A stretch of 64,000 bases of DNA from contig CP141137.1 in the NCBI GenBank assembly GCA_035236585.1, positions 45,282,057 to 45,346,056 of the forward strand. The letters run 5' to 3'. A program made the position numbers and the translations under genes. Below, one piece after another: positions 11,941 through 56,062 of this stretch (position 1 is the stretch's first letter; the number at the start of each line of letters is the position of its first letter). This stretch comes from Warburgia ugandensis (lineage: Eukaryota > Streptophyta > Magnoliopsida > Canellales > Canellaceae). Under the pieces are notes generated by a model that was given only the letters and a program-made list of their open reading frames with translations, had not been told where the DNA came from and searched no databases.

Positions 11941-12351
11941 TTAATGTGGAGAAGATGGATCAACAACTATCATTACAGCAGTAGCCATACTCGTAGGACC
12001 CTGAGTTACCATCACCTGTCCTCGTCCATTCTCAGCTGCTTCCAACTCCAAATCTTCATTGCCAGTGGCAGCATTCTCTGTGCGGATTGTTCGGACAGCC
12101 TGCTCTGAACCATAGAGCAAACCCTGCAGCCGCAAGAGATAGCTCTGTCCAGGCGGTTGAGTATGCATGTAACGGGTAGTAGTCACTATACTAGCAGAAG
12201 CTCGTCCTGAGTCTGCCCGGAGGTTGGAGAGTGCACTAAGGTCAAGGTTTGGAAAGACGGAGCAGCGGCACCGAGGGCACTTCACGTTGAGCCGAAGCCA
12301 CTCATCAATGCATTCTACGTGAAAATTGTGAGCACAAGGGAGGCCTCGAAC
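11941..12351 (-). CDS. SIS3: SIS3-like coding exon 10 (second half of RING-H2, tail, stop)
   Basis: Starts [20 protein letters not shown] and completes the finger with CPRCRC. It then has the conserved [12 protein letters not shown] and a variable acidic tail to the TAA at 11941-11943. The acceptor is AATGAGCAG. Confidence 0.95.
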   Translation of the reverse strand, partial: VRGLPCAHNFHVECIDEWLRLNVKCPRCRCSVFPNLDLSALSNLRADSGRASASIVTTTRYMHTQPPGQSYLLRLQGLLYGSEQAVRTIRTENAATGNEDLELEAAENGRGQVMVTQGPTSMATAVMIVVDPSSPH

Positions 12352-15300
12352 CTGCTCATTTTGCAACAAGACTTGAACTTAAAAGGGGTCCACCAAGGGA
12401 ATATTGGTTCCTAAAACAAAGATTTGAAGTGTCTGACATGCATGAGATCATATCACACTTGACAAATGCTTTGCGCTACAGCTATAATATTGAGAGTTCA
12501 AACCAAGCTTGCCACCCGCTCAAAACAAAGATAAGTGATCATTTTGTACAATTTTAGCCTTTAAGAAAGTACATAAAGCAACACTGTTGCTCAACCACTG
12601 CACAAGCCAGCCAATCCAAACCATCTAAAATTGATTGGCTGCTGCTTGTTGGAAGCAGCAAGCAACCTAAAGTCCACTCAACAGGGATGGCTGGCAAAAT
12701 TTTGGACTGGTGAAGCAAAGGAAAATACTCATTGACTGGATACTGTAGAACTTCAGATTGCTTTGTGAATCAAACTAGAGGTATAGACCCATCATTAATC
12801 AAATAGTGATATTAGATAGTTCAAAATAAATGTCATATTTGTACTGAGATCCAGCCCAAGAAGTCGGCATTATTTACTGAATAGGGACATCATCAGTAAG
12901 AGCTTTTTACTGAAACCATGATCAAACTAAAGCATACTTTCAGCTCATTTCAGGAGACACCAAATTAACTATGCAATTCCTTTTGAAATCCGGCGGAGGA
13001 ACCAAGGATCCAACTTATTCAACAAAAGAAAAAGGAACCAACCTTAAGGCTATAACAAAAAGGTTGAGTTGAGCAATGTGGGTTCAAGCCCGAAATTGTT
13101 GGTTTTACCCTGTATAAAATGGAAAAGTTGTCTTCTTTACCTCATTGCCGACACGAAATTCTTCCAGGCAGATTGGGCATTCACTGCAATCAGTAGGGAC
13201 AGCCTTTAGCCTGAACTTTGGAAGCTCCTGAATAAGTGCCTCCACTGCTTCTCTCTGTCGCCATACAAAAACCTCAAATGATGGAAAAAATAATAATAGA
13301 TAGCAGAAGAAAACCTTTTAATATGAACAAAATATGTTTACATGTCAAACCCCCAAAGCAATTGACATATCACTTGCCTTTCTATTTCTGACAAACATTT
13401 TGACAATCAGGCAAATTTCAAGTCTTAAGAGACCAAGGTAAAGGAGTGCAAGAAGGAAGGGAGGATAGTTGCATCTAATCAAAATATGATGCCTGTAAGT
13501 CATGAGGAGTCTATCCTTAGCATATGTGACATATACCCGAAATACAATAGAAGAGTAAGACATAATTCAAGAAGTTGTTGTGACATTGACCCTGTAGCAT
13601 AATGAGTAGGTATTCCTAGTGCCAGAAAAGGTGGAGTCACGGAGAAAGAATTACACAAAACCCAGATATAAGCAATTCCTTCTAAAATGGCATCATTGTT
13701 CTTCTTTCCCTCAGTCATACTACATGTGATGCATAGTGTCTGTCCAAGACACTGCAACTTGCTATCTTCTTGCCTACCAGGAAAAAGATTGACCTCTATG
13801 GAAAGACTTATCTGTAGTTCAAAATTGCAAAGGCAGATCACTACTCCCCAATAAAAATTACCTGGGTTGCACTTAAGTAAAGTCCTGGATGATATGCAGT
13901 GTCTTGGCCCATTCCCCTCAGCTCTTGTCCAGCAGCTTCAAATGCCCAGTCAGGTACTCGGATCATATCCACCAAAACCTGAAATGAGAAAGATCAATAT
14001 TATCAAATTAGGGTTTTGCATATTGTTCCAAGATAATTAGGTATCCATAATCGAACAGTAATAAAATGGAAGGCAAAAAACTCATTAAAAAATTATTTGT
14101 CCAGTGACCTGTCACCAAAAAATAGAAAATTGGCTTCATTGTCCAAGAAACTTTTTATATCTAGATAGACTCATGATATTAACAAAATGACTGAGCTAGG
14201 TAAAACTGTTACAAGAGCTCATGACGTGATTGCAGCCATTAAAACAATAATTCCCTGTCTAAGTACATAATATTATAAGCTTTTAACCATTACATAATTA
14301 TTATATATCATCATGTATAACTAGGAAATCAAACAAAAGGCCATGATAACCTCACAATTCAAATTGTTGACCTCAAGATATACCATCATTTTTTCAGTTA
14401 TGCATGAGCAATTTGTAGAATTTAAACATATTTAAAAAGGTTGCTTGTGATACACACTACATTGCGTCCAATTTAGCTTGTCAAGCCTAGCAGCGTGCAT
14501 AACAGAAAGAAATGATATATAGTTCCAGGACTCCAGCTTAATTCTGAAATCAAGGGTATGCTTTGAAGCAATTCTCACATCTGGGACTAAGTAAATTAAA
14601 AGACATACACAGACAAACACACACCATATATTTTTATGGGGTGTCTGCGTTTGCAGTGCAGGTCTGTGCAGGTTGGTATTCGGTTGCATAATCAATATGG
14701 TAGGTGTAGAATCCATTTAAAGAAGAGACGCTCATAGAATGGTTCAAGTCCGAGATGCTCACTGCATTCAACAGCAAAGGAAATATAGTAGCACCAAGGA
14801 AAAAACCAAAAGAGAGCTAAAACCTCAGCCAGCTTCCTAAGAAACAAAGAGAGGCAGACACAGATCAAGACCAGCCAGACAGCAGCAAAAGCCATTTTGT
14901 CACTAGCTAGGAAAAGACAAGCAGCAGCACCAGAAACACTCAAGGGCAAAACACAGCAGAATAGCAACCAAACCATCATGAGGCAAGAGCAAAAAGAACC
15001 TGATGAGTATCCAATTTTGTATAAAAATCATCTAATTAGTTGCCCATCTGTAATAACTTGTGGTGTTATTTTAGGGTTCTTGGCCAAAATTCATAACACA
15101 TGCATTTCTGACCTAATAATTCAAAAGTTGATATTTTGCAGGTTCAAAAACTAATCCGAAGTATGTGAATAATCATATTTTTCTAAAATTTAATTAGAGT
15201 TTTTAACCTTTTGTAGGTGATGGGAAGGTAATCCAGCAGTCAAGATTTATCGAGATAGAAATTAAAGCCATTCATGAGGTTTTCCTAGTCCTAACTAGGA

Positions 15301-18300
15301 AACCTATGGAAGCCAAGGCCTAAATTTTATCAATCCAAAGTGTGATCAAGGGTCAAGATCATCTCAAGGCAAGATCATGAATCCAAGGAAGCAATTAGAA
15401 TAGCCAATGGTACTTAAAATGGGCCCGTGTACAAGCCATGGAAAGCCTACCACCTTTGCAAGAGAGTCATTGAAGCCACCTTAACCATATGAGCCATGAG
15501 AGAAGGTGACAAGCTAATGAAGTCAAGCCAAGACATTAAAGCCAAGGGTATGAGCCATGAAGCCATGCTAAATGAGCCCTCAAAGCTACTTAAGCCAAGC
15601 TAAATGGAGTGATGTTATTTGAGGAGAATTTCACTTAATTATCCTAAGATAAAAAGTAGGTTTTTAAGAGGATAATTAAGAGATATTTTGGGTGAAAGTC
15701 AAAACAAGTAAGCATGCATGTAGACCACTAGGAAGAGCCCACTTTAGTTTTATTTTTCTCATCTTTTCCCCACTTTTTTCTCTCTCTCCATCTCACCGCC
15801 CTTGTTCCCATGATTTTCACTTAAGGGGGAGATGCACCAACCTAAAAAGTAGGCGTCTCCCACCTTCCTAAAGTCCCTCTTAGCCAGCCAATCACCCACC
15901 TATTTCCTTTTCTTCTTTATCTCTCTCTCTTTCCCTCTCTCGCCATCCCTCTTTCCATCTTTATTCAAATTCAAAAAGTGAATCGACAATTTTTACAAGA
16001 GGGAGATTGCCCCTCCTAAAGCCCACCTTGTCCCACCTTGCTTGCTATCTTGCCCCCACCTTGGGTGTCCTCTCAGTTGTCCTAGGTTAACCAATCTCTC
16101 CTTGCCACCTCACCTCTCCCCTAGGGTTTCCTTTAAATAACAGCCAACCCATATAAAGGTTGGGAGGGTTTCCACGTGAACTAAGTATTGGAGAAGGGGC
16201 AAACGCCCCCACCTAAGAAGCGTCTCCACCCTTCCTCCTCTTCTTCTCCAATGCACTCCAATCACTCTCCTTCCAAAAGTCTTCAACGCCTCCTCCCGTG
16301 GAGCAGCCATCTTCCTCCATCCCTCCACTCCTGCTTTTGCTTGTCTTCCTTTAGTTACTACTTTGATTCAGGTGAGTTCTTTAATGGTCTTATTTCATTG
16401 TTGCTTTGCTTTTGTTCCTTCTTTTATTACCTTGTTAGCCTCCTTGCTTCCATGCTTTATTTTTCATGCCCTGTTCCTTAATATTTCATGCTTGTTGCCT
16501 TTGATTTCAACCCTAAATCCTTGTTCCTAAGGATCACTAATCTCTAGTAGTGACAACTAAGAGATAGTGATCTTAGATCAAGTGATGTGGGAGCCTTAGA
16601 TCCATTGATTCCCATTAATCTTACTCTCAAATATCACTTTTTTGTTGGAATCTTTGCTTCATCTCCTTAGTTTTTCTTGATTATTTTCTTAAGATTTAAG
16701 TTATTGTTTCTGTGCTAGTGACAGCCAAGAGAAGTAGTAGCTTAATTCTTTTGAGTTCAATTCATCTTTTATGTACTTTTTGCTTAGCTCTAGCACTAGT
16801 TTGATGCTGTTTTTCCTTAGGATAGTTCCATCTTCCTAGTTTCTCCTCTTGGTTTTCTTTTGGGTTTTATTTGCATGTTAACTGAGCTTGGTTTACTGTT
16901 GTTAGAAGGCTTTTATATGTGATTGGAATCAATTTTCTAGCCTTGTAAGAGAGCGCAATTTCCAAATGGTGGATACATGTTCATCAAGCTCTAATTTGAT
17001 GTATTTTGACATTCAATCAGCATAGTTGCATGAAGATTCTTGTTCATGCTTGTTCTAGTAGCTAAATACTTTAGATCTTGAATGTTTTATTACATAAAAA
17101 GTGCTCATTACAATGCTTTCCATGTCTAATTGATTGGATGTTCAAAAACAGCATGTACTGGAATTTATAATGAACTGTTCATGCTTAATTTCCACCACCA
17201 TATACATCTTGTTTACTTGCTTTCTTCAAAACACAATTAGATCTTTAGATTATTTAGTTAATGCTTGAATCATGCGCATGATACTTGGGTGGCTTTCTTT
17301 TAAATGCTTGATTAGTTGTTGTTCCCATTTAGTTTTCTTGTTTAATTGTATTTGATCTTAGTTTAGATTCCATCAATTACTAATTTGCATCTTAGTTTAG
17401 AAAGTTTCTAATTTTAGTTTAGGAAAATGTTACCTTTAGAATATCTTAGTTTAGAAAATTTTCAACTTATCGCAAGTTCTTTAATTTCTTTAATTTCATT
17501 TAGTTTTCTTGTTTAATTGTATTTGATCTTAGTTTAGATTCCATCAATTACTAATTTGTATCTTAGTTTAGAAAGTTTCTAATTTTAGTTTATGAAAATG
17601 TTACCTTTAGAAAGTCTTAGTTTAGAAAATTTTCAACTTATCACAAGTTCTTTAATTTCATCTTTCCTTGAGTAATTCATCTTAGTTTTGCATTAGTTAA
17701 TGTTTTAGAATGCATGTTTAGAAAAGTTTCTAAGTTTTAGCTTATTTACTTTTAGCATGTTTTATCATTCCATGGTTTTAATCCATGCATATTTAGTTTC
17801 ATGTTAGTTTAAATCTTTAGTGCAGGTTAAAAACCACTTTCTTTCGCTAGGTTAGATAATTTAAATAAGGATCCACCTAACACACAAAATGTTAGATTCC
17901 TTATGGGATTGACCTCACTTGTATGCAATTACTACATTGATTAGTGCACTTGCAAGTAAATTAAAACATACATCAAGTTTTTGGCGCCATTGCAAGGGAA
18001 TCATAACGGATTTGTGGATTGAATCTTAGTTTAGATAATTTATCTCTAGTCTAGGTTTAGGTTGCATTAGATTAGAGTTTTGCATCATTTTTGCATTTAT
18101 TGCTAATTTCTCACAAATTGACAATATTTTGTTTGATTTTGTATGAGGAAAATTTGGCAAAGGAGCAATGATGATTCCGTGAGCCAAAGCTTCATCACAT
18201 TAGATTAGGGTTTTGAGTGAAACTTGTAGTGAGGCCCATTGTATATTGCACTTTATTATTCAATTTTAAATAGGTTGTATTAATACATGGCAAGTGTGTG

Positions 18301-19801
18301 ATATGGCGACCAACGCTTGATCTTCATCTCCACTGTAAGTATCCTCACTCATTTTTTCTTTTTCTAGTATAATTGCATTTAGTATAAATTCCATCTTTGA
18401 TAGTAGCTCATATAGAATAGGATCATTCATGATGATTGTTGCATTAGTTGTGCACCTATTTAACAAAGATTAGCCTAAGCTTGACTATAACCAAGGTATA
18501 GGTTGTCTAGTTATAGTATCTCGTCTGTTGAGGTGTTTGACTCTTTATTAGATAGCATATAGGTAGGCATTAGTTTGCTTTCTTCTATTGCATTGCATGT
18601 TTAAAAGCTTTACAGTGGAATGGATCACAATGATACTAAGGGTCCACAAGAAACCTCATAAAATAAAGATTAGATTTCATCACCAGATCCTTGGTCCACC
18701 TCACTTACATGCATCTACTACAATGGATTCGTGCACTTGCAAAGTTAATTAAAACATACACCATAACCCTATGCAAGCTAACTTTCCTCTTCAGTGTCAA
18801 TAGCCACCAACCACAGAGCCCTTCTAACAACAATCTAAAACATCTACAAGAGAGTCCACCAATCTCTTGACATGCTTAAACCTAACAATTTACTATGCAG
18901 TCCGCTGTTTAATCAAACCAATCAGGCCAGGAAATTGCCAGCAGCCTGGCTTGTTTGGCCCTTACACTTAATTAGGCTTTGAATCTCCATAAAGTATGAT
19001 ATTGGAAAGAACTGTTTTCCACATTTTAACCTAATTAAACAAGGCTACCTATTAAGTGTTAAATTTTGGCAAAATACCCTTAATCTAGCATCAAATTAGA
19101 TCATCTCATCAATCAATTTTAAAATTTTAAATAAAATTTTGCATTTTAGCTCCAATTGATCATACAACCATTTATTTGTCAAATTTAACGGTTAGATGAT
19201 CATCAGAGTTAATCAGCTGATTCGAATTTAATTTTGTATGTTGCAGATCAATCAAATTGAAATTGGATGATCCAAATCAAGGAGGAAACTACTTGGAAAA
19301 AGAAAAAACTAAAGCCAATCAGGACACTAATGTCTAAATTTGGATAAGGGAGAGGAAGAATTGGATTAAAAAACAAACTCCAATGAGAAATCTATATAAA
19401 GACAAGAAGAAACGGTTAATGGAAGAAGCATGAGTGGGCCGTATATCCCTCTCTCTCTCTCTCTCTCTTGCTCCCCCTTTCCCTGCCCACTCTAGACCGT
19501 TTCCTCTCTCTCTCAATGACTCTCTCCCTCACTTATTCTCTCTTTCACCCACATATATTTGTTTTGATCTCGCTCTTTCTCTTCTTTGTAAGGAAAACCA
19601 GACCCGAACCCATCTTCTCTGTTCATCCTCTTTACTTCTTTCTCTCTCTCTCAGGTTCTCTTTATTGTAAGAAAACCATATTCGAACCATACCTCACAAC
19701 GGAGAGGACTTGAAGAATTCATTCACATCTCCGCTTTCTACCTCATCACCGTTGGGGCCTCATCACCGTTGGGGAAACCCCACGAGTTCTCATCCGCTCC
19801 T

Positions 19802-19857
<56 letters not shown>

Positions 19858-37800: not shown

Positions 37801-39037
37801 CTGATCATACCATGTTCACAAAACACTCAACTGATGGGAGAATAGCTATTCTCATAGTGTATGTGGACGATATTATCCTAACTAGGGATTATACAGCTGA
37901 AATGGAACAGTTAAAAAGATGTCTTGCATCTGAGTTTGAAATTAAGGACTTGGGATCACTAAGATATTTTCTTGGAATGGAGGTTGCTCGATCAAAGAAA
38001 GGGATTGTTGTCTCACAAAGGAAATACATCCTTGATCTTCTCAAGAAAATGGGAATGAGTCGCTGTCGTCCTGCAGAAACTCCAATTGATCCCAACCAAA
38101 GACTTAGAGATAGTAAAGGTGATCCTGTGGACACATCTCGATACCAGAGGTTGGTTGGTAAGCTCACTTACTTGTCCCACACACGTCCCTGATATTGCCT
38201 TTACAGTAAGCCTTGTGAGTCAGATCATGCATTCCCCTCATGAAGAACACCTTGAAACTGTGTATCGAATTCTGAGGTACTTGAAAAGTTCTCTAGGAAA
38301 AGGTTTATTTTTTAAGAAAAATGAACAACAAAGTATTGAGACGTACACAGATGCAGATTGGGCAGGTTCAGTCATTGATAGGAAATTAACATCGGGTTAT
38401 TATACCTTTGTGTGGGGAAACTTAGTGATGTGGAGAAGTAAGAAACAAAGTGTTGTTGCCAGGAGTAGTACAAAAGCAAAATACAAATCAATGGCTCATA
38501 GAGTTTGCGAGATGATATGGCTGATACGAGTTTTGGAAGAGCTAAAGCGAATTGTGACCATGCCAATAAAGTTGTATTGTGACAACAAGGCGGCTATTAG
38601 CATTGCACACAATCCAGTTCAACATGACAAAACAAAGCACGTTGAGGTTGACAGGCATTTTATAAAGGAGAAAATTGAAGCAGGGGATATTTGCTTGCCA
38701 TTTGTTCCAACTTCACAACAAATAGCTGATATTCTTACAAAGGGACTTTTCAAACCTAACTATGAGTTCTTCATTAGCAAGTTGGGCATGATAGACATCT
38801 ACGCTCCAACTTGAGAGGGAGTGTCAGATATGTTAGGAAACTTTCTCTCAAAATTAGTTCCTAGTTTCTAGGGATTAGCTTTTATCTTATCTTAGTTTGT
38901 TTCCATAAATAATGGAGATTAGGATCAGATTTGAATCTAAATATGTCCTTTCCTTTTATTCCTAGTTTGACCCTTATGTTAAGGGATTTCCTTTAGCCTA
39001 ATCCATGGGATTCAATGGCAGGTCTATTGCCATGCTT

Positions 39038-39075
<38 letters not shown>

Positions 39076-45000: not shown

Positions 45001-48000
45001 ATGGCAACTCTCTAACTATTCGCCTCATAGGCCTACTCCTCATCGCTGACCTCACCATCATCATCATCATCATCAAGACCTTATCCCAATTAGGGGTTGG
45101 CCACATGAATCTTATTCCTCCATTCCACTCTATTAAATACCATGGCTTCATTTAGTCCCAACGTTTTAAAATCTTTCCTCGCCACTTCTATCCAGGTTCT
45201 TTTGGGCCTTCCCCTTGCCCTTTTAGAACCTTATACTTGTATTGCCTCACTTCTTCTAACCGGTGCCATTGTTGGTCTCCTTTGAACATGTCTAAACCAT
45301 CTAAGTCTAGTCTCCCTCATCTTGTTACCTATTGGTGCTATCCCTAAATTTCTTAGAATATTTTCATTTATAATTCTATCCTTTCTTGTCTTACCACTCA
45401 TCCATCTCAACATCCTCATTTTTGCGACGCTTATCCTATGAGTATGATGTTCCTTAACTGCCCAACACTCTGATCAATAGAGCATGGCCGGCCTTATTGC
45501 CATCCTATAGAATTTTCCTTTTAGTTTGAGTGGCACCCGTCAATCATACAAAACTCCAAATGCACATCTCCATTTGTTCCAACCCACTTGGATTCTCTGG
45601 ATAACTTCTATCTCAATCTCTCTACTTAAATGAATCATTGATCCTAAGTACCGAAAGTGGTCTTTAACGGAGACTTCTTGGTTATCAATCTTGACTGGTG
45701 TTCTACTCCTACTCTCCTTGCTAAAATTACATTCTACATATTTTGTCTTAGTTCGGCTAATTTTAAATCCTTCAGATTCTAATGCTTCTCTCTATAACTC
45801 TAGCTTTATGTTTACACCCTCCCTTGTCTCATCAAGTAAGACTATATCATCTGCAAATAGAATGCACCAGGGAATCTCCTCGTGCAGATGTTTTGTTAAC
45901 TCATCCATAACCAATGTGAAAAGGTATGGACTCAATGCCGATCCTTGATGCAATCCTATAGTGACAGGAAAATCACCAGTCACACCGCTAGTGGTCTTAA
46001 CATTTGTTACTGCTCCCTCATACATATCTTTAATTATATCTATATATCCCTGAGAAACCCCTTTACTGCCCAACACCCTTCATATTAACTCTCTAGGGAC
46101 TCTATCATAAGCTTTCTCTAAGTCGATAAAGACCATGTGGAGGTCTTTCCTCCTCTCCCTATATTTTCTACTAATTGTCTTAATAAGAAAATAGCCTCCT
46201 TCATACCCATTCTCCACATTCTCGCCTTCCATAAACAAGGATTTAAAGGGAGTCCTAGAAGAGCCCTCTGCAACAACATATCCAAATCCTTGACATTGAC
46301 AACACCTAGTGTTGTTGTTTTGCCTTGAAAACTCTCCTGTCACAACCTTTCCTTTATCGACATTAGACGCCACTGTCGCTTGAGTTCTAGGTTGCTAATT
46401 CTAAAATGTAGATTTAACCCTGGATTCATATTGTTTAGCAGGTTGCAGTTTGAGATACCACTCTAAATATTGCACTATCCAATAGGTGTGATCTAAGGAA
46501 TTTATATCATGGAGAATTGAGTTCTTTCTAAAGCTCAGGCAAAGGCCTATCCTAAATCTAAACAAGTCACAAAGGGATCTTCCTTTACATTACACCTTAT
46601 CATAAAAATTGAACTGAGGAATGTATTCAATAACAGACAGACCTCCCTGGCATAAGTTCTGCCATTGATCTAGTAATCGAGAATGGTAAGACAAAAGAAC
46701 AAATTTCTCTTTCAGCCTCTCCTTCATGTTCTCCCATGCAGAAATGCATGGACGCATTGCTGCAGCTCGTTGACGCCTCAAATTGGTCCAATAGAGCCTT
46801 GCTTGACCAATCGGTTTAATCTTAGCAAACTGGACCCCCTGCTCTTCGAACATTTTATACCAGTCAAAGTAATGACCCATGTTTGAAAGCCAGTCAAGAA
46901 ATTGTTTTGGATTCAGTTTGCCATCATAGGTAGGGGCATCAAGCTTAACAGATTTCAGGACCCAATTTTCAGCAATATGTGGCTCATAATTGACATGATG
47001 GTGATTATCACCTTCTTTGTGGTTATCTAGCTCCTGCAAAGCTAGTATAGCATGCTTACCTATGAGAGGTTCGGGTCACGACTCTAAGGCCTTAATGCAC
47101 GAACCCTTATCATCTAATCGTACTGTCAAATTTAGGATGCTGACTGATTACACAATCATTCAACTCAGAGCCTGAATTTCCTAAAGGATTTTACTAAGCT
47201 GTAAATTCATTGGCTGGTAGGACTGACCACTACAGTTGGACATACACTAGGATGCCTTGACACTTGACGACTAAACACCCTACAACTCTATGGTAAGTAC
47301 CCTAATGTAGATTCTAAGCAACCTTATGCTCTGATACCAAATTTGATGTAGGATAGCATGGAAAATGACCTGATCTATATGCTGTGATCATATTAGAATT
47401 AAATTAAACTACGACGAACACTTCAACATACAGAAATTAGTCTTAATTATCATGAATAGCCTACAATGAGTTACAGGATCTGCAAACTGCCCTAGATATC
47501 TATTGATTAAGGTAAGATCGAAGTTTCAATTCTGATCACCCCTCTAATTGACAAACGGTCGTGATTAACTTCGATTCTAGGGTTTAGGAATTTTGTGCAA
47601 TATAAGAATTCTAGGTTATTACCAAAGCCAATCACGTAACTACACGTAGCTTAGAAATCGTCCTTTAAAAGACAAGGTAGAACAGTGTTGACTTACAGAA
47701 CAGGATGAAACAAAAGTGATTCGGCTTTTATACCAAATGCGGCTTCATGCCCATGAGAAGCTAAAACGAGGAATACACCAAGTTTAACAAAATTTTCATT
47801 CATTTTCATCAAAAATTGCTCACACAAAAGAGAAAAAGATCTTAAGTAGGGGACATCCCACCCTAATAAAGGAAAAAGACAAAATTGCCCCTAGATAAGT
47901 CACAACATATTAAGAAACCTAATAACCTTAGTGATAAATATCCCAAGTAAACTAAACTGTAACATAACATAAAAAAAAAAAAACATGGGATGATGGTCTC

Positions 48001-51000
48001 CATCACTAGCATACATAAAACTGGAAACAATTGTTCAATAGTCCAAATAAAGAAAGCTCCATTCAATTATAGTTCAATAATTTATTTTATTAAATCAATG
48101 TCAAAACATGCGTATAACTAGACTTGCATCTTGTGGTCTACTCATGAACAGACTGCAGAACTAATAGTATGGAAGTCATATCCATATATTGGTTATACAC
48201 CATCAACCTGCAATTCTTGGTCAATCCAAATGCAACCAAGCTGTCTACCACATAATTCTTGGCTATACGCATATGTACACATACATACATTTAAATAGAA
48301 GAGGGGGGGGGGAAGTTATCCTATGGTGTTTGCACAATTAGATCTACACAGGATCACATTATGCATTCTTTTTTCTACATCTCGGTTGTAACATTTGTTT
48401 ATCCAATCTGCTCATAGTAGGCCTGCATATTACATAGGCCATGCGCCAAAAAACATCACCACATGACGTTCAGCAACAATATTTTGTAGTGAAAATAGAA
48501 GATACAGAAGTCCAACAAACAACCAAATACTAAGGGCAGAAAAACCTTAACACGTTGAAAGGTTCACATCATACAATCCCCGAAACTTTTAGAGTAGCAT
48601 ATACAAGATGAGGCCCAGATATGAACATGACACCCACATATAGAGAAAACATCTAAATGCTAACAGTGAAGTGGAAACACCAGATAAGAACAAATATATA
48701 TTATGTCCAATCTATTGCAGGGACTGGATTGGTTTGAGGCATTCCTCTTCCCCATTCCTTATCCTTTCATCTCTTTGAGATCTTTGGCTTTTCAACTTAG
48801 ATTTGGCATAGATATGCATCAAATATTACACAGTCAACCAAACTCATATACAACCAAGAGAATAGAAATCACTGATCCATGATAAAGGAGTCAAACTAGC
48901 TTTATGAGAGACAATATATGACAAGCTGTTAGTTGTTCATGCCCAGCCACCTATTGGAGATTCATGCTAGACCACTTGAGTCGTGACATGTCAACTAATT
49001 AGAAACAAGTGATGAAGAAGAAAAGAAAGTTCACATAATCATGATAACATCAATCTTTATATAAATAGCATCAAGACGAGTCCTTACAAACCCATTCCTG
49101 CAGCAAGGCCATTATCCACGAACATTAATAGCCGAAAAACAAAGACAGTTGTGTAGTCAACCTAAGACAAAGAGAAGACAGAACAGCAGGTCACTACCTT
49201 TAGAAAAAATCTGATAACAAACATAGAGAATTTGTTAAATATGTGAACTCACCACAATCCATATGTGCAAAGGATATATACAGAGATGGTACCGTTTCCA
49301 ATTAATCGAGACAATGATTCTTACAGGTCATTAAGGAACAAGACATAATCTCAAATGCAAATAAACAACTTATTCAAATGGACATAAAGTCAAGCATTCT
49401 TGTGACATGAACATCTACATAATAAAAAACTGAAAAAGGTGGATTCTTAGCAAGAATAGTATCAACAGTTTTCCATTAATCCCCATTAATGAGAAGAGAG
49501 AATAGGACAAAAGATTTTGAGCAACTAACTTCCCTTAGTAATTGTATATATAATACAGTCCAACCTCATATGCGAAATACCAAAAGCTGCACAAGAAGGG
49601 CAGCCCGGTGCACGAAGCTCCTTCATATGCGGGGTCCGGGGAAGGGGGGACCACAAGGGTCAATAGTACTAGCCTTACCTTGCATTTTTGCAAGAGGCTG
49701 TTTCCATGCCTCGAACACGTGACCTCAAAGTCATACAAAGACAACTCTACCGCTGCGCCAAGGTTCCCCGTCTAAAAGCTGCATGTGGATTTGAAGAATA
49801 CTTAGGTAAATCTTGAGTAAAGGGCAGCCCCAGTGCACGAAGCTCCCGCCTATGCAGGGTCCAGGGAAAAATAATTGGTAAATCTTGGGTCTCAAAGGAA
49901 AACTACATCAACACTATTGAGCAAGAGAGAGCTAAGAAGCACTAGTGAGTTTGGAGCGGAAACATTATGGCAAAGAGCCTACTTTTTCCCTTTTTGTTCT
50001 CTGTCTTTTTTTGAAGGATAAATCTAACCACGGCATTAAATTCACTTGCTATAGTCTAAAATGTGGTTACAATTGCTTAGAGAAACTATCCAATGGAGAA
50101 GTATTTTGTTGATTCCATAATCATTCATGGAAGAAATCAGTTAGTTGTTACAAGAATACATGTTGACAGGACTAGAACAAAACTTTAGAACCAGCTGCTA
50201 AACTAGGGCCCTTTTAACATAGTATTAAACTTTCTCCTCTCTCTTGGTCATATCAAAATGCTTTGATTCTCTGCCTTTTTGACAAGAAATCAGGATTCTG
50301 GTGTATGAAACTCCAATGACAACTGGATCTGATTCAAACATTTAGAATAATAGTCACACAAATGATTCAAACCTCACATAAGTCAGGCTTACTTTATTAA
50401 CTTCAAAACCAACAAGGAAAACAAGGTCGACAAAAAAACTGAAGATAATCTTACGGAGGATTTTGGAGATGCAGAAAAAAAACTATGGTAGACCATGATA
50501 CAAATCAATAAGATGAGAGACCTAGAAGATACACATGAATTTTGCAAGTTGACGTAGAACTTGAAAAATATTGAGGAATTCAATAGTTGCAGAGAACTGG
50601 TTTTGGTACAAGGCAAGGATAAAAGATGCAAATGAGAAATAGAGGAAAGAAAGACAAACTTAGAGACATAACAACATAAAGAAATTGTTCACTAATCATC
50701 TTGATTAACCTGTATGCATGTTTCCTCTCGATAATATTTCGACCATTGAAAAATAAGAAAGAAGAAATTGAAGAATTGTTTCATCAAAAGTTTCTTCAAT
50801 AGATAAAACAAAAAAAGAAAACAAAAACAAAATGGGGGATGTAATCAAAGGCAGAAGAGAAAAAGAATAGAAGAATGGAATACTTATTGAGAAAGGAAAA
50901 AAAATTTACATGTTCATATATCTTCACTCACCTATTTATTTACAGTTCTTTAAATGACTTGAGATGAGAGAATGAGCGAACACAAGTCCCAACTCAGACC

Positions 51001-53708
51001 TTTGCACCACTCAGTTAGAATAAGATAAAGCACAAGTGCTCTATATACATAAGAAAATGACTAGATTACAAGCAAAACATTACACACTGTAGCAGTCTAA
51101 AACTTCTATTTGATCTATGAAATCCCAATCCCTTATTTCCATGCCATCTCCAATTGTAATTACAGATAAATATTAGACCCTCCATTGTCATGATTCATTC
51201 TGTAAATTCAAAGTGGCACATGCTCACACAGAAAATAACAGTAACTGTGGGCAGGTTTGTATGCCCAAAGAGGCTCTGGAGTGTTGTATACGAACAATCA
51301 GAAACTGCTGAACTCATAGCCTTAAGTTCACATCTCTTAATCGCAAATAGATAACAACTACATCACCTATTTGCTGGCTTGGTGCACACGTAACAGCTTT
51401 TCTGAAATAAATATACGCAATCTCTCTCTTGACAGCAGAGCTATTATCATTGTTTAGGTAAATGAGTGTGGAGTCAGTAACAAAGTAATTTTCATCTTTG
51501 TTCAAATGATAAGAATCACTCAACAACGTCAAAAGTAAATATGCATGCTGGACAACCAGAAGCCAGATTAATTATGGTGAATAGGAAGAAGTCCAGGTTT
51601 CCAGCAAGGATTACAAGCAGTGCCAAATGTGTATATTGGCAAACTTTGGCCAATCCCACTATAGTTGGAAAAGCTTTATAAAAGTGTGGAATGAAGCATC
51701 AAGAGTCAAAGGGTACTAGCAAGGAATCAACATTACAAACTTTGAATAATAATGAGAACATATCAACTCCAACCATGATGGTTTATAAGAGAGGGCCCAG
51801 TCACTTTGATGATCTAAACTTTGCAAGGAAAAATTCCAAGAGTCCAGCAGCCGCTCGCATTGTTAACAAAGCTTCATCCTATCCAACTCATCCATGGGCT
51901 GAGGCCCACTCTACCAGGCCAAACAAAAGCAGCTACAAAATGGTCCAGCTGATTGTTCTAGAAAGTGGTTGTTTCCTTGGTTATCGTGAGAGTAAACAGC
52001 ATGCTTAGCTTAAAGGCCCAGGAATTGCTTCTTTTAACAAAGGATGTATTTCACATTCCAAATCCTAATCAGGCTAAAGTAGGTAATGAAGGCACGTGTC
52101 AAGTCCTTGACAACCTTGACAGGGGAAAAATATGCCTAACATTTATTATCATCATCCTACAAAGATCAAGAAAATTATGCCCCAAGTTCCATGCATAAGG
52201 GATTCTTTTATGAATATGCTGTGAAACTACCGTGACACAAAGCACCCAAGCCAAGAAGAGGAAGGAATGGAAGAAGAAAGACGGAAAGAATAGACAAGAA
52301 AAAGAGCAAGTTCATGTTTTCTAAATTCTCATGTAACCAATTCAACTGGTTCTTGCAGATTTACCGAGTTTGACAAGAGAGGTCAAAATTCCAAAGGGTG
52401 GTTTCCTTACAATGAGTATCAGTATTCTATGCATGTTCTAAGAAGCCTAGTTGTTCAATTTATGTTGAAAACCTTATGATAAAAAGATGCAATGATATGG
52501 CACCATAATTAGCAGATGTATTACTTAACTTGAAGTCATGGTAGACTTCAGAGAAAAGATAAAGGACTAAGAATCGGTTTGACCAAATGAAAGTTGCAGA
52601 TCTTATGCACTAATGGTAGTTGTAGGTTTAAGTCAGATTCACCTCCCAAGATTTCAGACAAGCATCATATAAACATTTTAGAATTGACGAAATTTTGATG
52701 GTTTCTCCCTTGGGGGAATGCTACAAGCTCTTCTGTTGGTGTTGATATTATTACAATGACCAGGGTCATGCCTCATGTTCCACAAGTAAAATGAGTACTT
52801 CCAGCACTTGAAATGTGTTACAGCCTTTCAGATAGGTTTTTTTGCTGGTAAAGGGCAGCCCCGGTGCACAAAGCTCCCGCCTATGCAGGGTCTAGGGAAG
52901 GGGCAGACCACACAGGCCTATAGTAGGCAGCCTTACCTTGCAGTTTTTGCAAGAGGCTGTTTCCACGCCTTGAACCCGTGACCTCAAGGTCACATGACGA
53001 CAACTTTTACCATTACGCCAAGGCTCCCCTTCTAGGCTTCTTAATTGAATGTTTCTTGATCTTTCCTTGATGTATGCTGGAAACCTTTATAGACTTTGAT
53101 TGGCTGCATTGGAAATCTTTCTCCACCATCACCTCCTCTTGAAAGATGTCCCAATTAGTTATAAGAACCTTCAGCAAGATGGCTTCATAAGTAGTTAAAA
53201 TATCATGTACTAGAATCCTGTTCTAAAATGGAAGTTATTCAAATGAGTATTCCAAATGGCACAATTTCTCCTGCAACAAGTATGGATAGTCTGAGCATGG
53301 CTATCTATTGCTTGTAAAGAACTTTATCTTTGATAAGCATGCTACTTGCATAAACTGCTTTAAGGATGAGAGGAATCATGAACGATGGAAATCAATTGGC
53401 ATTTCGTGTTCCTAGGAAAAGAGGAATCATGAACGATGGTCCATATGTTTGAGGTCGTCAGATCCAGTCAACCAACAATGTGCAAATTTGCAAATTATCA
53501 GAATTTTAGGAACAATAAAATAGCAGAAAAGAAAAACGAAAAAAATGAAGAAGCATGCATCTTATAGAGATTGTGATGTTTTCAAATTTCAATTTGCGCT
53601 TTCTTTACCCAAACCCTTTAAATGATATTGATTTCACAGTTAAGCACCTAGGCCAGCTTATGCAGAAGTTACAAGAAACACTGGCTCAACGCAGCATCTG
53701 TAATCATT

Positions 53709-53770
<62 letters not shown>

Positions 53771-54061
53771 ATCACGATCAATCCCTGTCATACCAACAAT
53801 TGAGCACGAGAAACCTAAACGAAAACAAAATCAAGAAACAATACAATTCAACAACCCACTTAAGAAAAGGAATGTTCACATCAACTAAATTCCCGAATAT
53901 CATACAAAGGATACACACTAGTCGCGAGCATCGACAAGAAGAACCCGTCGTACCTGCCAAAACAAATGCACGAACTAAAACCATCGTTCTAAGACAAGAG
54001 CCCACACAAAGAGGAAACGAAACCGAACTTACCACTTGAAATCGACGCCCCTGATGGCCAT
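11941..54061 (-). CDS. SIS3: SIS3-like membrane RING-H2 E3 ubiquitin ligase, 10 exons over 42 kb
   Basis: Ten exons join into 1149 coding bases (382 codons plus stop), each intron with GT and AG borders. Coding exons, in order: 54033-54061, 53915-53953, 49253-49319, 49088-49161, 30495-30633, 30301-30393, 26349-26414, 13862-13978, 13141-13254, 11941-12351. Predicted protein: four hydrophobic segments (about residues 12-29, 43-62, 84-110, 124-146), a basic loop ([19 protein letters not shown]), then a RING-H2 finger with C234, C237, C252, H254, H257, C260, C271 and C274, and a variable tail of about 105 residues. It matches Arabidopsis SIS3 (known: a RING ubiquitin ligase acting positively in seedling sugar response; about 358 residues) along its whole length. 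No stop or shift was found in any exon, so the gene is probably active. The substrate is unknown. What is odd is its size: introns 2, 4, 6 and 7 are packed with transposons. Confidence 0.93.
12352..13861 (-). other. SIS3-like introns 9 and 8 (with exon 9 between them)
   Basis: Introns of 789 bp (12352-13140) and 607 bp (13255-13861). No transposon or RNA gene is seen. Small open frames here (for example 13345-13841) are shadows without domains. Confidence 0.8.
13141..13254 (-). CDS. SIS3: SIS3-like coding exon 9 (first half of RING-H2)
   Basis: Encodes [20 protein letters not shown] and the first zinc pair, CPICLEEF; 38 whole codons. Acceptor GCGACAG, donor GTAAAG. Confidence 0.94.
13862..13978 (-). 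CDS. SIS3: SIS3-like coding exon 8
   Basis: Encodes [20 protein letters not shown] through [11 protein letters not shown]; 39 whole codons. Acceptor ATTTCAG, donor GTAATT. Strongly conserved with SIS3. Confidence 0.94.
17326..17667. repeat. 171-bp tandem duplication
   Basis: Two units with offset 171 (start CATTTAGTTTTCTTGTTTAA), differing at a handful of positions, inside the putative LTR of the first Athila/Tat-like copy. Confidence 0.9.
17982..17999 (+). other. Primer-binding site, tRNA-Asp type
   Basis: TGGCGCCATTGCAAGGGA against the tRNA-Asp-complementary TGGCGCCGTTGCCGGGGA, the primer site typical of Athila/Tat gypsy elements. It lies 7 bases inside the LTR end. Confidence 0.7.
19125..20805 (+). 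repeat. 5' LTR of the second Athila/Tat-like element (left end approximate)
   Basis: Shares its order of blocks with 22656-24657. TATA box at 19392-19401, CT-rich leader, perfect CT run at 19804-19854. No NUPT or SINE here, so it shows the undisturbed LTR sequence. Confidence 0.75.
19804..19854. repeat. (CT)n microsatellite
   Basis: About 25 perfect CT units in the 5' LTR. The matching place in the 3' LTR (near 23785) has only a few units, so the run expanded after insertion. Confidence 0.95.
21937..22655 (+). pseudogene. gag remnant of the second Athila/Tat-like element
   Basis: From [14 protein letters not shown] the frame continues into the gag core of Athila/Tat elements ([19 protein letters not shown], then [10 protein letters not shown], then [16 protein letters not shown]). 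Three in-frame TGA codons interrupt it. Two replace conserved Trp codons (after GSIKT and after ELFYQ). The frame then shifts, and sequence like [14 protein letters not shown] can still be read before the break at about 22655. The capsid-like protein would package element RNA; this copy cannot make it. Confidence 0.8.
22701..22882 (-). mobile_element. Au SINE, full length, copy 1
   Basis: A perfect 20-bp target-site duplication (CAATAGACCATACAACCATT, 22681-22700 and 22883-22902) bounds it. On the minus strand it starts with a tRNA-like head (A box TGGCGCAACAG, B box near GGGTTCAAG at 22820-22828) and ends GGGGCTGCCCTTTTT, as the plant Au SINE family does. It depends on LINE enzymes in trans. 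Confidence 0.95.
23512..23722 (+). other. atpH: Plastid DNA insertion (NUPT): atpH start and upstream spacer
   Basis: From about 23651 the sequence reads [20 protein letters not shown] and on to IGP, the N-terminus of plastid ATP synthase subunit c. It is preceded by GGTGCGAGGAGCTTACC, the usual plastid leader just before the atpH start. The start codon is now ATA. The gene breaks off after about 26 codons. Compared with the 5' LTR, the piece replaces about 45 bp of LTR sequence between GGGTTCT and the (A/T)GAAGAATTCATTCAC-like block, as expected for end-joining repair that captured organelle DNA. Borders are good to within about 10 bp. Confidence 0.88.
25711..26045. repeat. Diverged tandem duplication, 166-bp unit
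   Basis: GCAGTCAATGGGTT and following blocks (TTAAACTTCAAGT, AGAAGGAATCT, GAAAAGGCTGAAG) recur with an offset of about 166 bases. The start of a third unit may follow. Confidence 0.75.
26349..26414 (-). CDS. SIS3: SIS3-like coding exon 7
   Basis: Encodes the basic juxtamembrane stretch [19 protein letters not shown] plus EYE; 22 whole codons. Acceptor ATTTTGCAG, donor GTAAGA. Confidence 0.94.
26415..30300 (-). other. SIS3-like intron 6 (3.9 kb)
   Basis: Dominated by the foldback element at 27407-29595. The flanks 26415-27406 and 29596-30300 show no further recognisable element. Confidence 0.88.
27407..29595. mobile_element. 2.2-kb foldback element with tandem subrepeats
   Basis: The outer ends are inverted copies: TAGAAAATTTTTTACATCAC at the left; the reverse complement of the right end reads TAGAAAAAATTTCACATCAC. 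Both continue through a shared GGTATGA(G/A)ATCTCACTTAAG. Inside, a unit of about 163 bp marked by GGCCAAACAAGATGAATGG repeats in direct order from 27651 to 28660 (markers near 27651, 27811, 27974, 28136, 28298, 28462, 28601, 28655). Inverted copies then occur near 28963, 29127 and 29290. The arms meet near 28675. No open frame belongs to it. This is the structure of foldback or long-TIR (possibly Mutator-like) non-autonomous DNA elements. The target-site duplication was not resolved. Confidence 0.82.
30301..30393 (-). CDS. SIS3: SIS3-like coding exon 6
   Basis: Encodes [20 protein letters not shown] and the rest of the fourth membrane segment. Acceptor TTTTTGCAG, donor GTGTGT; 31 whole codons. 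Confidence 0.93.
30495..30633 (-). CDS. SIS3: SIS3-like coding exon 5
   Basis: Encodes [14 protein letters not shown] and the long third membrane segment, ending TSARSC. Acceptor TTCTAG, donor GTGAGT. It lies 18.5 kb from exon 4. Confidence 0.92.
33230..33843. repeat. Duplicated intron segment A, left part
   Basis: Shares ordered blocks with 48130-48640: a (C/G)AGAACTAA block then TCATATCCATATAT-like sequence, ATTTTGTAGTGAAAAT, and ACTTTTAGA then ATACAA/ACGA. Its right part resumes at 40145 after the RTE and copia insertions. Confidence 0.65.
33324..33735. repeat. 207-bp tandem duplication in segment A
   Basis: AGTTTTTATAATGTTTGGA at 33325 and 33532 starts two units that share TTCAAAGCTACATATG, TTTTTCCACATGTGAAG and CCAGCCCCAAAAACATCTCC. 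A CA run (33308-33324) precedes the first. Confidence 0.88.
33844..33922 (-). mobile_element. RTE-clade LINE, 3' tail (left piece, split by copia)
   Basis: ATCATCATCATCAAGACCCT followed by ATCCCGATTA.. is the reverse complement of the RTE 3' tail. It runs to AGTAT, where the copia element begins. The rest of the RTE copy continues at 39135. Confidence 0.88.
33923..34193 (+). repeat. 5' LTR of the copia element
   Basis: 271 bp, TGTCGG to CTTATA. Preceded by AGTAT. The canonical CA end has decayed to TA here; the 3' copy keeps CA. Confidence 0.92.
34194..34205 (+). other. Primer-binding site, initiator tRNA-Met type
   Basis: TGGTATCAGAGC, a perfect match to the usual plant initiator tRNA-Met primer site, directly after the LTR. 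Confidence 0.95.
34229..35270 (+). pseudogene. copia gag remnant
   Basis: Starts [16 protein letters not shown]. After one in-frame TAG it continues with the UBN2-type copia gag ([28 protein letters not shown]-like [20 protein letters not shown]). A zinc-knuckle remnant near 35050 has lost its second Cys (CEHYKK where CEHCKK is expected) but keeps H and C in [12 protein letters not shown]. Frames break after about 34730. Confidence 0.85.
35284..38814 (+). pseudogene. copia pol remnant (PR, IN, RT, RNase H)
   Basis: Protease remnant [13 protein letters not shown] has Arg where the active-site DSGA needs Gly. The integrase core (35760-36285) keeps the acidic residues in [18 protein letters not shown] and QNGVIERKN. 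The frame then shifts, with readable [10 protein letters not shown] and [12 protein letters not shown]. Reverse transcriptase (37353-38192) has the YVDDIIL box and [14 protein letters not shown]. RNase H (to 38814) has [24 protein letters not shown] and [14 protein letters not shown] replaces the Trp in the KTWE motif near 37370. A SINE separates the connector from RT. Confidence 0.93.
37180..37345 (-). mobile_element. Au SINE inside copia pol, copy 2
   Basis: The reverse complement has the tRNA-like head (TTGGTGCAATGGTAAAAG), the B-box region near GGGTTCAAGGCG, and the end GGGGCTGCCCTT. AAGGCCCTT flanks it (37171-37179 and 37346-37354) as the likely 9-bp target-site duplication, though part of that may be SINE sequence. 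Removing it restores the conserved copia MKALEKNKT reading. Confidence 0.92.
38813..38821 (+). other. Polypurine tract of the copia element
   Basis: GAGAGGGAG directly before the 3' LTR; it primes plus-strand DNA in this family. Confidence 0.85.
38822..39134 (+). repeat. 3' LTR of the copia element
   Basis: 313 bp, TGTCAG to CTTCCA, followed by AGTAT. Longer than the 5' copy mainly through a TA expansion (39040-39073) and about 20 extra bases after it. Confidence 0.95.
39040..39073. repeat. (TA)n microsatellite in the copia 3' LTR
   Basis: About 17 TA units; the 5' LTR has only about 6 at the same place. Confidence 0.95.
39135..40140 (-). mobile_element. RTE-clade LINE, remainder (right piece, split by copia)
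   Basis: Resumes with AGTAT at the copia right border. Read on the minus strand it holds, 5' to 3', [10 protein letters not shown]-like sequence (near 40110), the reverse-transcriptase box [16 protein letters not shown] near 39855 (consensus FADD, here FIDD), and the C-terminal [16 protein letters not shown] to [13 protein letters not shown]. It is 5'-truncated near 40140 and broken by shifts. Confidence 0.88.
40145..40440. repeat. Duplicated intron segment A, right part
   Basis: Aligns with 48690-48870: GA(T)TGGGTTAG/GATTGGTTTG, GAGGCATTC, CCTTTCATC, TTTTGAGATCTTTGG and ATATGCA(C/T)CAAA occur in the same order. A TA run (40196-40216) lies near its start. Confidence 0.7.
40593..41265 (-). 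repeat. 3' LTR of the gypsy element
   Basis: About 673 bp; on the plus strand from GATGTAGAACAGC to GTCCCCATCA. It aligns with the other LTR nearly end to end with many point changes and small indels, so the insertion is not recent. Confidence 0.93.
41266..41277 (-). other. Polypurine tract of the gypsy element
   Basis: The minus strand reads AGCTGGGGAGAT directly before the 3' LTR. Confidence 0.8.
41822..44900 (-). pseudogene. gypsy pol remnant (PR, RT, RNase H, IN)
   Basis: Read on the minus strand: a protease-region remnant near 44850, then the spacer with [16 protein letters not shown] (44313-44606). RT near 44250 has [20 protein letters not shown], and its active box VVYFDDILI is intact near 43814-43830. 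RNase H (43302-43484) has [12 protein letters not shown]. Integrase core pieces near 42640 ([12 protein letters not shown]), 42430 (SDRDVNF) and 42350 (HSQTDGQTEVV) keep the three acidic residues. A C-terminal end (41822-42082) reads [16 protein letters not shown]. Stops and shifts occur throughout. Confidence 0.9.
45055..46205 (-). mobile_element. RTE-clade LINE copy inside the gypsy element
   Basis: On the minus strand it runs from [19 protein letters not shown] through [12 protein letters not shown], then [20 protein letters not shown] and the catalytic box [16 protein letters not shown], to [16 protein letters not shown] and TWIEVARKD-like sequence. It ends in a GATGATGATGATGATGATGG tail at 45055. 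It is 5'-truncated near 46205 and separates gypsy gag from protease. The target-site duplication is not clear because the gypsy side also has GAT repeats. Confidence 0.92.
46285..47039 (-). pseudogene. gypsy gag remnant
   Basis: The capsid domain at 46590-47039 reads [51 protein letters not shown] and LLDQWQNL. A decayed zinc knuckle near 46300-46340 reads [15 protein letters not shown]: the His of the CCHC motif is replaced by Tyr and the last Cys by Gly. It is followed within about 100 bp by the RTE insertion. Confidence 0.9.
47328..47339 (-). other. Primer-binding site of the gypsy element, tRNA-Met type
   Basis: The minus strand reads TGGTATCAGAGC four bases inside the 5' LTR. Confidence 0.93.
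47344..48005 (-). repeat. 5' LTR of the gypsy element
   Basis: 662 bp; plus strand TGATGTAGGATAGC to GGTCTCCATCA, with a perfect 5-bp inverted end pair. Confidence 0.94.
48130..48870. repeat. Duplicated intron segment B (uninterrupted copy)
   Basis: Matches segment A (33230-33843 joined to 40145-40440) in block order without the RTE or copia insert, so it shows the pre-insertion state. Divergence is substantial, with several indels. Confidence 0.65.
49088..49161 (-). CDS. SIS3: SIS3-like coding exon 4
   Basis: Encodes [19 protein letters not shown] to AAGMG, the second membrane segment. Acceptor GTCTTAG; donor GTAAGG, which gives Leu70 across the junction. Confidence 0.92.
49253..49319 (-). 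CDS. SIS3: SIS3-like coding exon 3
   Basis: Completes Val23, then [13 protein letters not shown] to HIWIV. Acceptor CTGTAAG, donor GTGAGT. Ends in phase 0. Confidence 0.92.
49592..49773 (-). mobile_element. Au SINE, full length, copy 3
   Basis: Flanked by AAAAGCTGCA (49582-49591 and 49774-49783). The minus strand has A box TGGCGCAGCGG, a B-box region near GTGTTCGAGGC, and the end CGGGCTGCCCTT. Confidence 0.95.
49819..49876 (-). mobile_element. Au SINE, 5'-truncated, copy 4 (58 bp)
   Basis: Only the 3' end of the SINE is present (plus strand AAGGGCAGCCCCAGTGCACG onward to GGGTCCAGGG). GGTAAATCTTG(A/G)GT, 14 bp with one change, flanks it (49805-49818 and 49877-49890). It is therefore an insertion that arrived truncated, not a later deletion. 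Confidence 0.9.
52851..53031 (-). mobile_element. Au SINE, full length, copy 5
   Basis: Full head and tail as in the other copies (minus strand TTGGCGTAATGGTAAAAG to CGGGGCTGCCCTT). A clear target-site duplication was not found; TAGG(T/C)TT(T/C)TT on both sides is only a partial match. Confidence 0.93.
53710..53767. repeat. (GA)n microsatellite in SIS3-like intron 2
   Basis: 29 perfect dinucleotide units, about 150 bp downstream of exon 2 in the direction of transcription. On the transcript it reads as a CU run. Confidence 0.97.
53915..53953 (-). CDS. SIS3: SIS3-like coding exon 2 (39 bp)
   Basis: Encodes [12 protein letters not shown] and most of Val23, the start of membrane segment 1. The acceptor is TTTTGGCAG. 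The donor is taken as GTATCC, because only that one keeps the frame into exon 3; two nearby GTs do not. Confidence 0.88.
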
Positions 54062-55125: not shown

Positions 55126-55810
55126 ATATTCTTTAGATTTCTCAAAATGGCTAATGAAATTCAACCCCTCTCCCTTAAAAGTAGGAGGTGTATTCTCTTA
55201 GTATAATATTATATAGAAACAAAGTATAAAAAAAAATGACCAGAAAGCCCTCTACCACTTTGGCATAGGAAGGAGCCTCTCCTGTGTTGTCTAACATTTT
55301 TCTTTTTGTAAAAGTCAAAATAAGAATACCATGTCCTAACCTACTCTCCTATAATATCTAGTATTATGATTCAAGATTAGTCATAGTCATGGTTGTGTAT
55401 CCAACATTTGAGAAAAGAAAATTGTAAAATATTTCAAACACCTATTAGACTAAATTCTCAACTATGATTGAGTTTTTTGTAGAAAAATCCAAATGCTCAC
55501 TAGCTTGAAATTGCATAATGAACTCTTAAAATGGTACTTTTCAGTTTTAATTAGAAAAAAAAAAGAAAGAATATCTAAAGTTTTTCTTTCTTACTTATTT
55601 TGTTATCCATGTAACTGTGAACCTTCTTTCCCACCTTCATCTTCACATTTTTCTTGGTTATTATCACCATCATTGATGCAAAAAACTTCCTTCTTTCATA
55701 ACTTCAACAGCAGGTAACAAGTTTCCTTTATCTTCTTCTTTATTGTCCTTATGTCTCAACATTAGGAAGACTTATTGCACAAACAACTCAATCAATAGAA
55801 AACTAGAATT

Positions 55811-56062
55811 TGTAACACCCCAGGGTTCCAACAGTCACAATATTGTCCGCTTTGAGGCGCCCATACACACCTCACGGTTTTGTTATTCCATAGTTTTCTA
55901 GGAAAAACGCGTTGTGACCTTTAGAGTTTCCCGCACTCTTATAAACAGCCCAGTTTCCTCTCCCCAGGTAGTGTGGGACTAACTCTCTGTCCTTCACCCC
56001 AGCCTAAAAGCCTGCCAGCCTTCTCTTAGCCCACCCTCATCGCCAGCAGTCAAGGCTTAACA
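55811..56062 (-). repeat. TRIM-like LTR, left copy
   Basis: Plus strand TGTAACACCCCAGG to GGCTTAACA; preceded by GAATT. Confidence 0.92.

Follow-up and report, generated by a model that had tools for sequence, protein, structure and literature searches.

The window, the 64,000-nucleotide stretch of DNA analysed here (C12:45282057-45346056, from an assembly of 1.12 Gb in 14 contigs), contains the sole intact gene for a predicted SIS3-type RING-H2 ubiquitin ligase that we found in this assembly; the gene is very probably still functional, and its introns 2, 4, 6 and 7 host layered mobile DNA. That a stop-free coding sequence has been swollen by intronic transposons is a confirmed observation. 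The genome is probably that of a plant, to judge by the likeness of the gene product to a plant protein and by retroelements of plant type. Our comparisons draw on this one genome, on one Arabidopsis protein in a provisional version of its sequence, and on published papers, which are cited by PMC number.

Structure and predicted product of the SIS3-like gene

The exons were located by tblastn with the provisional Arabidopsis SIS3 protein (AtSIS3), after which their edges were read and the exons joined. The gene lies on the minus strand and runs in ten exons from 54061 down to 11941, a span of 42,121 bp (Table 1). Joined, the exons give 29+39+67+74+139+93+66+117+114+411 = 1149 nt, or 382 codons and a stop, with no internal stop codon; all nine introns have GT-AG borders and the frame is maintained across the joins. 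The original prediction, made from the letters of the window, had proposed just such a ten-exon join with GT..AG borders and an open frame, and its start and end of the gene agree with ours to the base. Introns 1 to 9 measure 79, 4595, 91, 18454, 101, 3886, 12370, 607 and 789 bp and account for 40,972 of the 42,121 bp, with introns 2, 4, 6 and 7 contributing nearly all of the excess length.

The reference sequence of AtSIS3 is provisional, and all identity figures rest on that version. Aligned with it over 359 columns, the joined protein is identical at 262 (73%, E = 0.0; residues 1-355 of the gene product against 1-344), and identity is 59/69 in exons 1-4, 79/100 in exons 5-7 and 126/185 in exons 8-10. 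An exact RING-H2 motif (C-x2-C-x14-C-x1-H-x2-H-x2-C-x10-C-x2-C) occupies residues 234-274, and Pfam reports zf-RING_2 in the joined protein at E = 1.9e-14. Kyte-Doolittle analysis gives three hydrophobic peaks above 1.6 in the N-terminal half, as in the N-terminal membrane region of SIS3-like proteins. The 43 distinct solved sequences that match the protein are all confined to residues 207-309 around the RING. For the predicted product, a likeness to AtSIS3 that runs through ten exons in order is far above chance, and the assignment of the gene as SIS3-like, already made in the original prediction, stands. AT3G47990 has been named SIS3 (PMC7003101), and SIS3 is described as a RING-H2 ligase whose mutants show an altered sucrose response (PMC8787203).

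Two features lie outside the gene. Upstream of the SIS3 start codon, at a distance of ~1.7 to 4 kb, a ~240-bp repeat is present in three copies (55808-58160). On the other side, a minus-strand sequence at 7434-9248 that we presume from its motifs to be UDP-glycosyltransferase-like is split into broken frames; within it, 30 bp are exactly duplicated in tandem (8197-8255), and contig C11 has related sequence in two places.

Table 1. Exons of the SIS3-like gene and insertions in its introns, in window coordinates.
Feature	Position	Strand	Basis
Exon 1 (ATG, 29 nt)	54033..54061	-	tblastn, edges read
Exon 2 (39 nt)	53915..53953	-	tblastn, edges read
Exon 3 (67 nt)	49253..49319	-	tblastn, edges read
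Exon 4 (74 nt)	49088..49161	-	tblastn, edges read
Exon 5 (139 nt)	30495..30633	-	tblastn, edges read
Exon 6 (93 nt)	30301..30393	-	tblastn, edges read
Exon 7 (66 nt)	26349..26414	-	tblastn, edges read
Exon 8 (117 nt)	13862..13978	-	tblastn, edges read
Exon 9 (114 nt), RING-H2 domain begins	13141..13254	-	tblastn, edges read
Exon 10 (411 nt), remaining RING-H2 domain and stop	11941..12351	-	tblastn, edges read
SINE-like repeat, intron 2	52850..53032		size, spread and structure
SINE-like repeat, intron 2	49593..49767		size, spread and structure
Gypsy LTR retrotransposon, intron 4, sense to gene	40588..48008	-	Retrotrans_gag (Pfam); LTRs; empty site on C11
Truncated LINE nested in gypsy	45052..46199	-	RVT_1 (Pfam)
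LINE in two pieces (33844-33922 and 39135-40137), copia between, intron 4	33844..40137	-	likeness to nested LINE 45052-46199
Copia LTR retrotransposon, intron 4, antisense to gene, inside LINE	33923..39134	+	rve, RVT_2 (Pfam); LTRs
SINE-like repeat nested in copia, intron 4	37180..37350		uninterrupted copia copies elsewhere
Foldback element, ~160-bp subrepeats in both orientations, intron 6	27407..29595		arms in inverted order
Organelle-type large-subunit rRNA fragment, intron 7	25089..25422	-	Rfam match 25110-25396 (bacterial family)
LARD-like LTR element, intron 7	19053..24658		LTR blocks; empty site on C11
SINE-like repeat inside LARD-like element, intron 7	22701..22883		size, spread and structure
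3.76-kb insertion, classless, intron 7	15004..18765		missing from C11

Mobile DNA in the introns

Eleven insertions were identified in the introns, comprising a copia and a gypsy retrotransposon, a LARD-like LTR element, two LINEs, four SINEs, a foldback element and a 3.76-kb insertion. The count is ten without the last of these, which has no class, and an organelle-type rRNA piece comes in addition; the earlier estimate of at least ten mobile elements is thus borne out. The identified insertions cover 25,964 of the 40,972 intron bases (63.4%); in intron 4 they take up 13,715 of 18,454 bases, and in intron 7 they take up 9,702 of 12,370. Size, spread and structure, rather than a repeat library, are the basis of the SINE and LARD labels. 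Pfam searches of ten element frames left three without a family and gave weak or unrelated matches only for some others.

The copia LTRs (~33932-34194 and ~38831-39134) differ by a K2P distance of 0.077 over 262 sites. For the block formed by copia and the surrounding LINE, 25 other places were scored among 19,200 candidates; in other genomic copies among these the two LINE pieces are contiguous, and several other copia copies span the position of the SINE, overlapping there by 12 bp. The frame of this split LINE itself matched no Pfam family. The gypsy LTRs (~40592-41268 and ~47343-48004) differ by K2P 0.152 over 645 sites, and the LINE nested in gypsy has 39 other places at 93-95% identity (40 of 14,015 candidates scored).

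Within the LARD-like element of intron 7, the LTR blocks fall within 19150-20805 and 22880-24657 and are 80-82% alike. The 3.76-kb insertion has one near-collinear relative, at C10:30361151-30364621, with 74-78% identity (39 of 41,778 candidates scored), and inspection of its ends yielded no element class. Dispersed pieces at other genomic sites are ~72-85% like the rRNA fragment. We had considered an amplified rRNA-derived family for these pieces and dropped it, the constant ends of the matches being set by the window's own piece; dispersed organelle-type insertions explain them. The arms of the ~2.2-kb foldback element in intron 6 (27407-28294 and 28684-29595) are ~70% alike when inverted and could form a long imperfect hairpin in the pre-mRNA.

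On the gene strand, introns 2, 4, 6 and 7 carry 3, 5, 4 and 25 AATAAA hexamers, 37 in all. The opposite strand has 7 against the 25 in intron 7 (13979-26348), and 12 against the 5 in intron 4.

A decayed sister copy and selection on the code

A genome search with the joined protein, in which 108 of 216 candidates were scored, returned SIS3-specific matches outside the window only on C11, at 9.22 Mb, the remaining candidate matches outside the window being to the RING region only. A second, compact SIS3 gene in the same genome, carrying all expression, had been named in the original prediction as evidence that would count against it; no compact second gene was found among the 108 candidates scored, and on that basis it was rejected. 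The sole other SIS3 locus found is the decayed relic on C11.

The two loci were compared using 120 kb from C11 and the window with 40 kb of flank at either end. Collinearity between C11 and the window region extends from the glycosyltransferase side through SIS3 to sequence past the window end. Exons 3, 4, 8, 9 and 10 match C11 in order, and exons 1, 2, 5, 6 and 7 have no match in the 120 kb; for exons 1 and 2 this absence is judged mainly from the collinear match, which stops at ~53727, ahead of exon 2, because these exons are very short. The relic contains three in-frame stops, frameshifts in exons 8, 9 and 10, and broken splice sites at the exon 3 donor (GT to GG) and the exon 10 acceptor (AG to AA).

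C11 presents clean empty sites for gypsy and the LARD-like element; it is also without the 3.76-kb element and the copia-LINE block, where the junctions are less clean. Intron 2 is mostly common to C11 and the window at ~71-79% identity, and was therefore long already before the duplication. In three intron blocks common to C11, the gene and the relic diverge by K2P 0.208-0.218. The LTRs of the LARD-like element differ by K2P 0.32 over the full alignment, which is no less than the gene-relic divergence even though C11 lacks the element; methylated LTRs may mutate faster, or the alignment may be noisy.

We propose that the sister copy on C11 arose by segmental duplication, possibly as part of a duplication of the whole genome. 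Thereafter the window copy gained at least gypsy and the LARD-like element, for which C11 has the clean empty sites, and probably also copia and the 3.76-kb element, with its code retained, and the C11 copy accumulated stops and frameshifts, exons 1, 2, 5, 6 and 7 becoming lost from detection.

Selection was assessed over 232 aligned codons, after removal of codons with gaps and of the divergent tail beyond codon 366. The gene and the relic show 44 residue differences with an Arabidopsis counterpart, and Arabidopsis agrees with the gene at 28, with the relic at one and with neither at 15. The window gene therefore matches Arabidopsis at 28 of 29 polarisable differences (p = 1.1e-7; two of the 28 are relic stops), from which we conclude that the swollen copy is the one that selection kept. 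The counts are 8:0 in favour of the gene in exons 3-4, with two differences matching neither, and by subtraction 20:1 in exons 8-10, so that the code has been preserved since the duplication both before intron 4 and after intron 7. Conservation of exons 5-7 rests on their 79/100 identity to AtSIS3, because the relic is without them. Between the gene and the relic, the NG86 method gives dN 0.103 and dS 0.251 over 229 codons.

The decay expected of a neutral sequence was estimated by scaling the relic's 11 disabling changes, among which one 7-nt gap sits near the divergent tail, by LTR age (K2P 0.077 for copia and 0.152 for gypsy, with 0.208-0.218 for the intron blocks common to C11). A neutral coding sequence as long as this one would be expected to have gathered ~6.3 disabling changes at the copia age or 12.5 at the gypsy age, and the gene has none; the probability of none is 1.8e-3 and 3.6e-6, respectively, both rough values that assume equal rates. 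Faster mutation in methylated LTRs would make the insertions younger and lower the expected damage, whereas a late onset of decay in the relic would raise the true expectation.

These results bear on whether the locus might be a recent pseudogene or a split gene, in which transcription stops in intron 4 and only the youth of the insertions has left the exons intact. Introns of 18.5 and 12.4 kb would suit that explanation, as would the 25 gene-strand AATAAA hexamers of intron 7 and the fall in expression described for Chloranthus once intron length exceeds 40 kb (PMC8626473). However, the counts above show that the exons on the near side of intron 4 and those beyond intron 7 have both stayed gene-like, every splice site is intact, and the insertion ages predict ~6 to 12 disabling changes in a neutral coding sequence. 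We consider this explanation quite improbable, and rejected it as the main reading on the selection counts and the decay estimate. It would be more surprising still, and we give the idea hardly any credence, if the inserted elements were an artefact of assembly: the assembly comprises 14 contigs for 1.12 Gb, the C11 empty sites for gypsy and the LARD-like element are clean, and the nesting of SINE in copia in LINE is backed by other genomic copies. A functional gene with transposon-laden introns is the reading that we carry forward.

Predicted transcription through the introns and related systems

The two LTRs of a retrotransposon are identical at insertion, and later C-to-T changes between them record local methylation. 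In counting such changes, each site was taken once, poorly aligned stretches were masked and three LARD-like LTR blocks were used; the p values are nominal. In the LTR pairs, 27 of 60 CWG sites were changed as against 119 of 541 CHH sites (odds ratio 2.9, one-sided p = 1.7e-4), and in the introns common to C11 the corresponding counts were 60/204 and 290/1238 (odds ratio 1.36, p = 0.04), the two odds ratios differing at z = 2.3. The main source of the CWG excess is the gypsy LTRs (14/25 against 34/184 for CHH, p = 1.3e-4); the remaining LTR pairs give 13/35 against 85/357 (p = 0.066). CG sites reverse the contrast, with 20/51 changed in LTR pairs and 50/81 in the introns common to C11, and CCG sites (2/11 and 4/10 changed) are too few to use. 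Observed/expected ratios of CpG, CHG, CWG and TG/CA did not separate the introns from their flanks. The counts hint at earlier CHG methylation of the gypsy element in intron 4. That the introns were once heterochromatic, as the original prediction implies, is thus weakly supported: the CWG excess in LTR pairs speaks for it, but that excess is driven by gypsy, and depletion of CpG and CHG is no different in the flanks.

Expression of the gene would require RNA polymerase II to cross ~42 kb, and the transposons would leave with the introns and be absent from the mRNA. The LTR elements may have borne CHG methylation, to judge by the weak fossil signal. Full-length transcription would also call for suppression of intronic poly(A) sites, for which the candidates are a general mechanism of splicing or U1 type and IBM2/EDM2, acting singly or together. 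In the genome, seven places with PHDvar_NSD were listed, of which two are above the family cut-off; the better of the two is an open frame on C14 with tandem PHD_NSD (4.1e-13) and PHDvar_NSD (3.4e-7), whose likeness to EDM2 beyond these Pfam domains is presumed. BAH domains occur at 20 places, 15 of them above the cut-off, and none was singled out as IBM2.

Whether the full-length mRNA needs the IBM2/ASI1-EDM2-AIPP1 machinery, on account of heterochromatic introns 4 and 7 with cryptic poly(A) sites and in the manner of IBM1, PPD7 and RPP7, is a question on which we lean towards doubt. The transposon load of introns 4 and 7, the CWG excess, the 37 AATAAA hexamers and the presence of an EDM2-like tandem-PHD open frame are all consistent with such a need, and there is a precedent in rice, where OsIBM2 supports transcription of genes bearing heterochromatic introns (PMC7145194). 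In Arabidopsis, IBM2 and EDM2 have been suggested to keep proximal poly(A) sites that lie in transposon regions from being used (PMC10241880). Against this stand the dependence of the CWG signal on gypsy, the opposite CG contrast, the failure of CpG and CHG depletion to separate introns from flanks, and the lack of an IBM2 assignment among the BAH places. Furthermore, most Arabidopsis genes whose long introns are methylated keep their full-length transcripts unaltered when intronic mCHG is lost, with IBM1 and PPD7 as notable exceptions (PMC11265718); because of this, to call the gene a natural target of IBM2/ASI1 and EDM2, as was done originally, is an overstatement. Overall, the original interpretation is partly supported. 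A bolder proposal, which we regard as unlikely, is that a predicted sugar-response ligase became gated by heterochromatin after the duplication. The sole surviving copy would then stand behind two long methylated introns, the balance of full-length and intron-terminated transcripts would report the state of the silencing machinery, and the swollen copy would have been kept over the leaner one. A reporting role of this kind has been proposed for IBM1.

Whatever its regulation, the functional gene that we favour is long for its genome. Its 42-kb span exceeds those of all 29 control gene groups (1.3 to 32.7 kb), which were measured over domains only. The first control, the myosin head, gave 105 listed matches in 13 gene groups (65 of 143 candidates scored); the second, Cpn60/TCP1, gave 95 matches in 37 groups (87 of 168 scored), of which 16 with at least three matches over more than 250 model positions were retained and 21 dropped, including an intronless gene. 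Gaps of more than 30 bp between adjacent myosin matches (n = 41) have a median of 124 bp and a maximum of 2184 bp; short exons may be concealed in the larger inter-match gaps, which reach 14,087 bp in the myosins and 10,389 bp in Cpn60/TCP1.

The two loci form a natural experiment, in which copies of equal age met different fates, the swollen one preserved and the other broken. They show that a well-conserved gene can tolerate mobile DNA amounting to tens of kilobases within its introns, and intronic LTR pairs offer a route to reading past methylation at a single locus from sequence alone. Beyond these points, the locus adds another long gene to those of a plant genome of 1.1 Gb. Among the titles listed in a literature search none concerned the locus, a weak negative result. 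Genes laden with transposons are known from large plant genomes, and the SIS3-like locus is ordinary in kind and a useful case.

Long genes filled with LTR elements in Chloranthus and magnoliids are of the same kind in different plants. In Chloranthus, LTRs are apparently the chief cause of long introns, and in a comparison of 2,184 orthologues 876 C. spicatus genes were above 20 kb in length; long-intron genes were more expressed there, with a drop beyond 40 kb of intron length (PMC8626473). The genes regulated by OsIBM2 in rice are likewise coding genes with transposon-filled introns. Rice has 4,227 gene models (~11%) with heterochromatic introns, under constraint that is relaxed on average (KA/KS 0.473 vs 0.384; PMC7145194), whereas the window gene, which is known from its sequence, is well conserved. 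As in genes with a heterochromatic intron under IBM2/EDM2 control, long introns of the intact window gene hold transposon or organelle-derived insertions, and Arabidopsis IBM1 likewise has an organelle-type piece in a long intron. That piece lies in intron 7 in both genes, which is probably coincidental: in IBM1 it is a methylated repeat that resembles plastid YCF1 (PMC11265718), and in the window gene an rRNA fragment among several transposons. The protein itself is nearest to Arabidopsis SIS3 (SUGAR-INSENSITIVE3, At3g47990), a RING-H2 E3 ligase with the same RING-H2 motif and 73% identity over 359 columns. Compared with the provisional version of that protein, the predicted product of the 42-kb gene is 24 residues longer, with the surplus in its C-terminal part.
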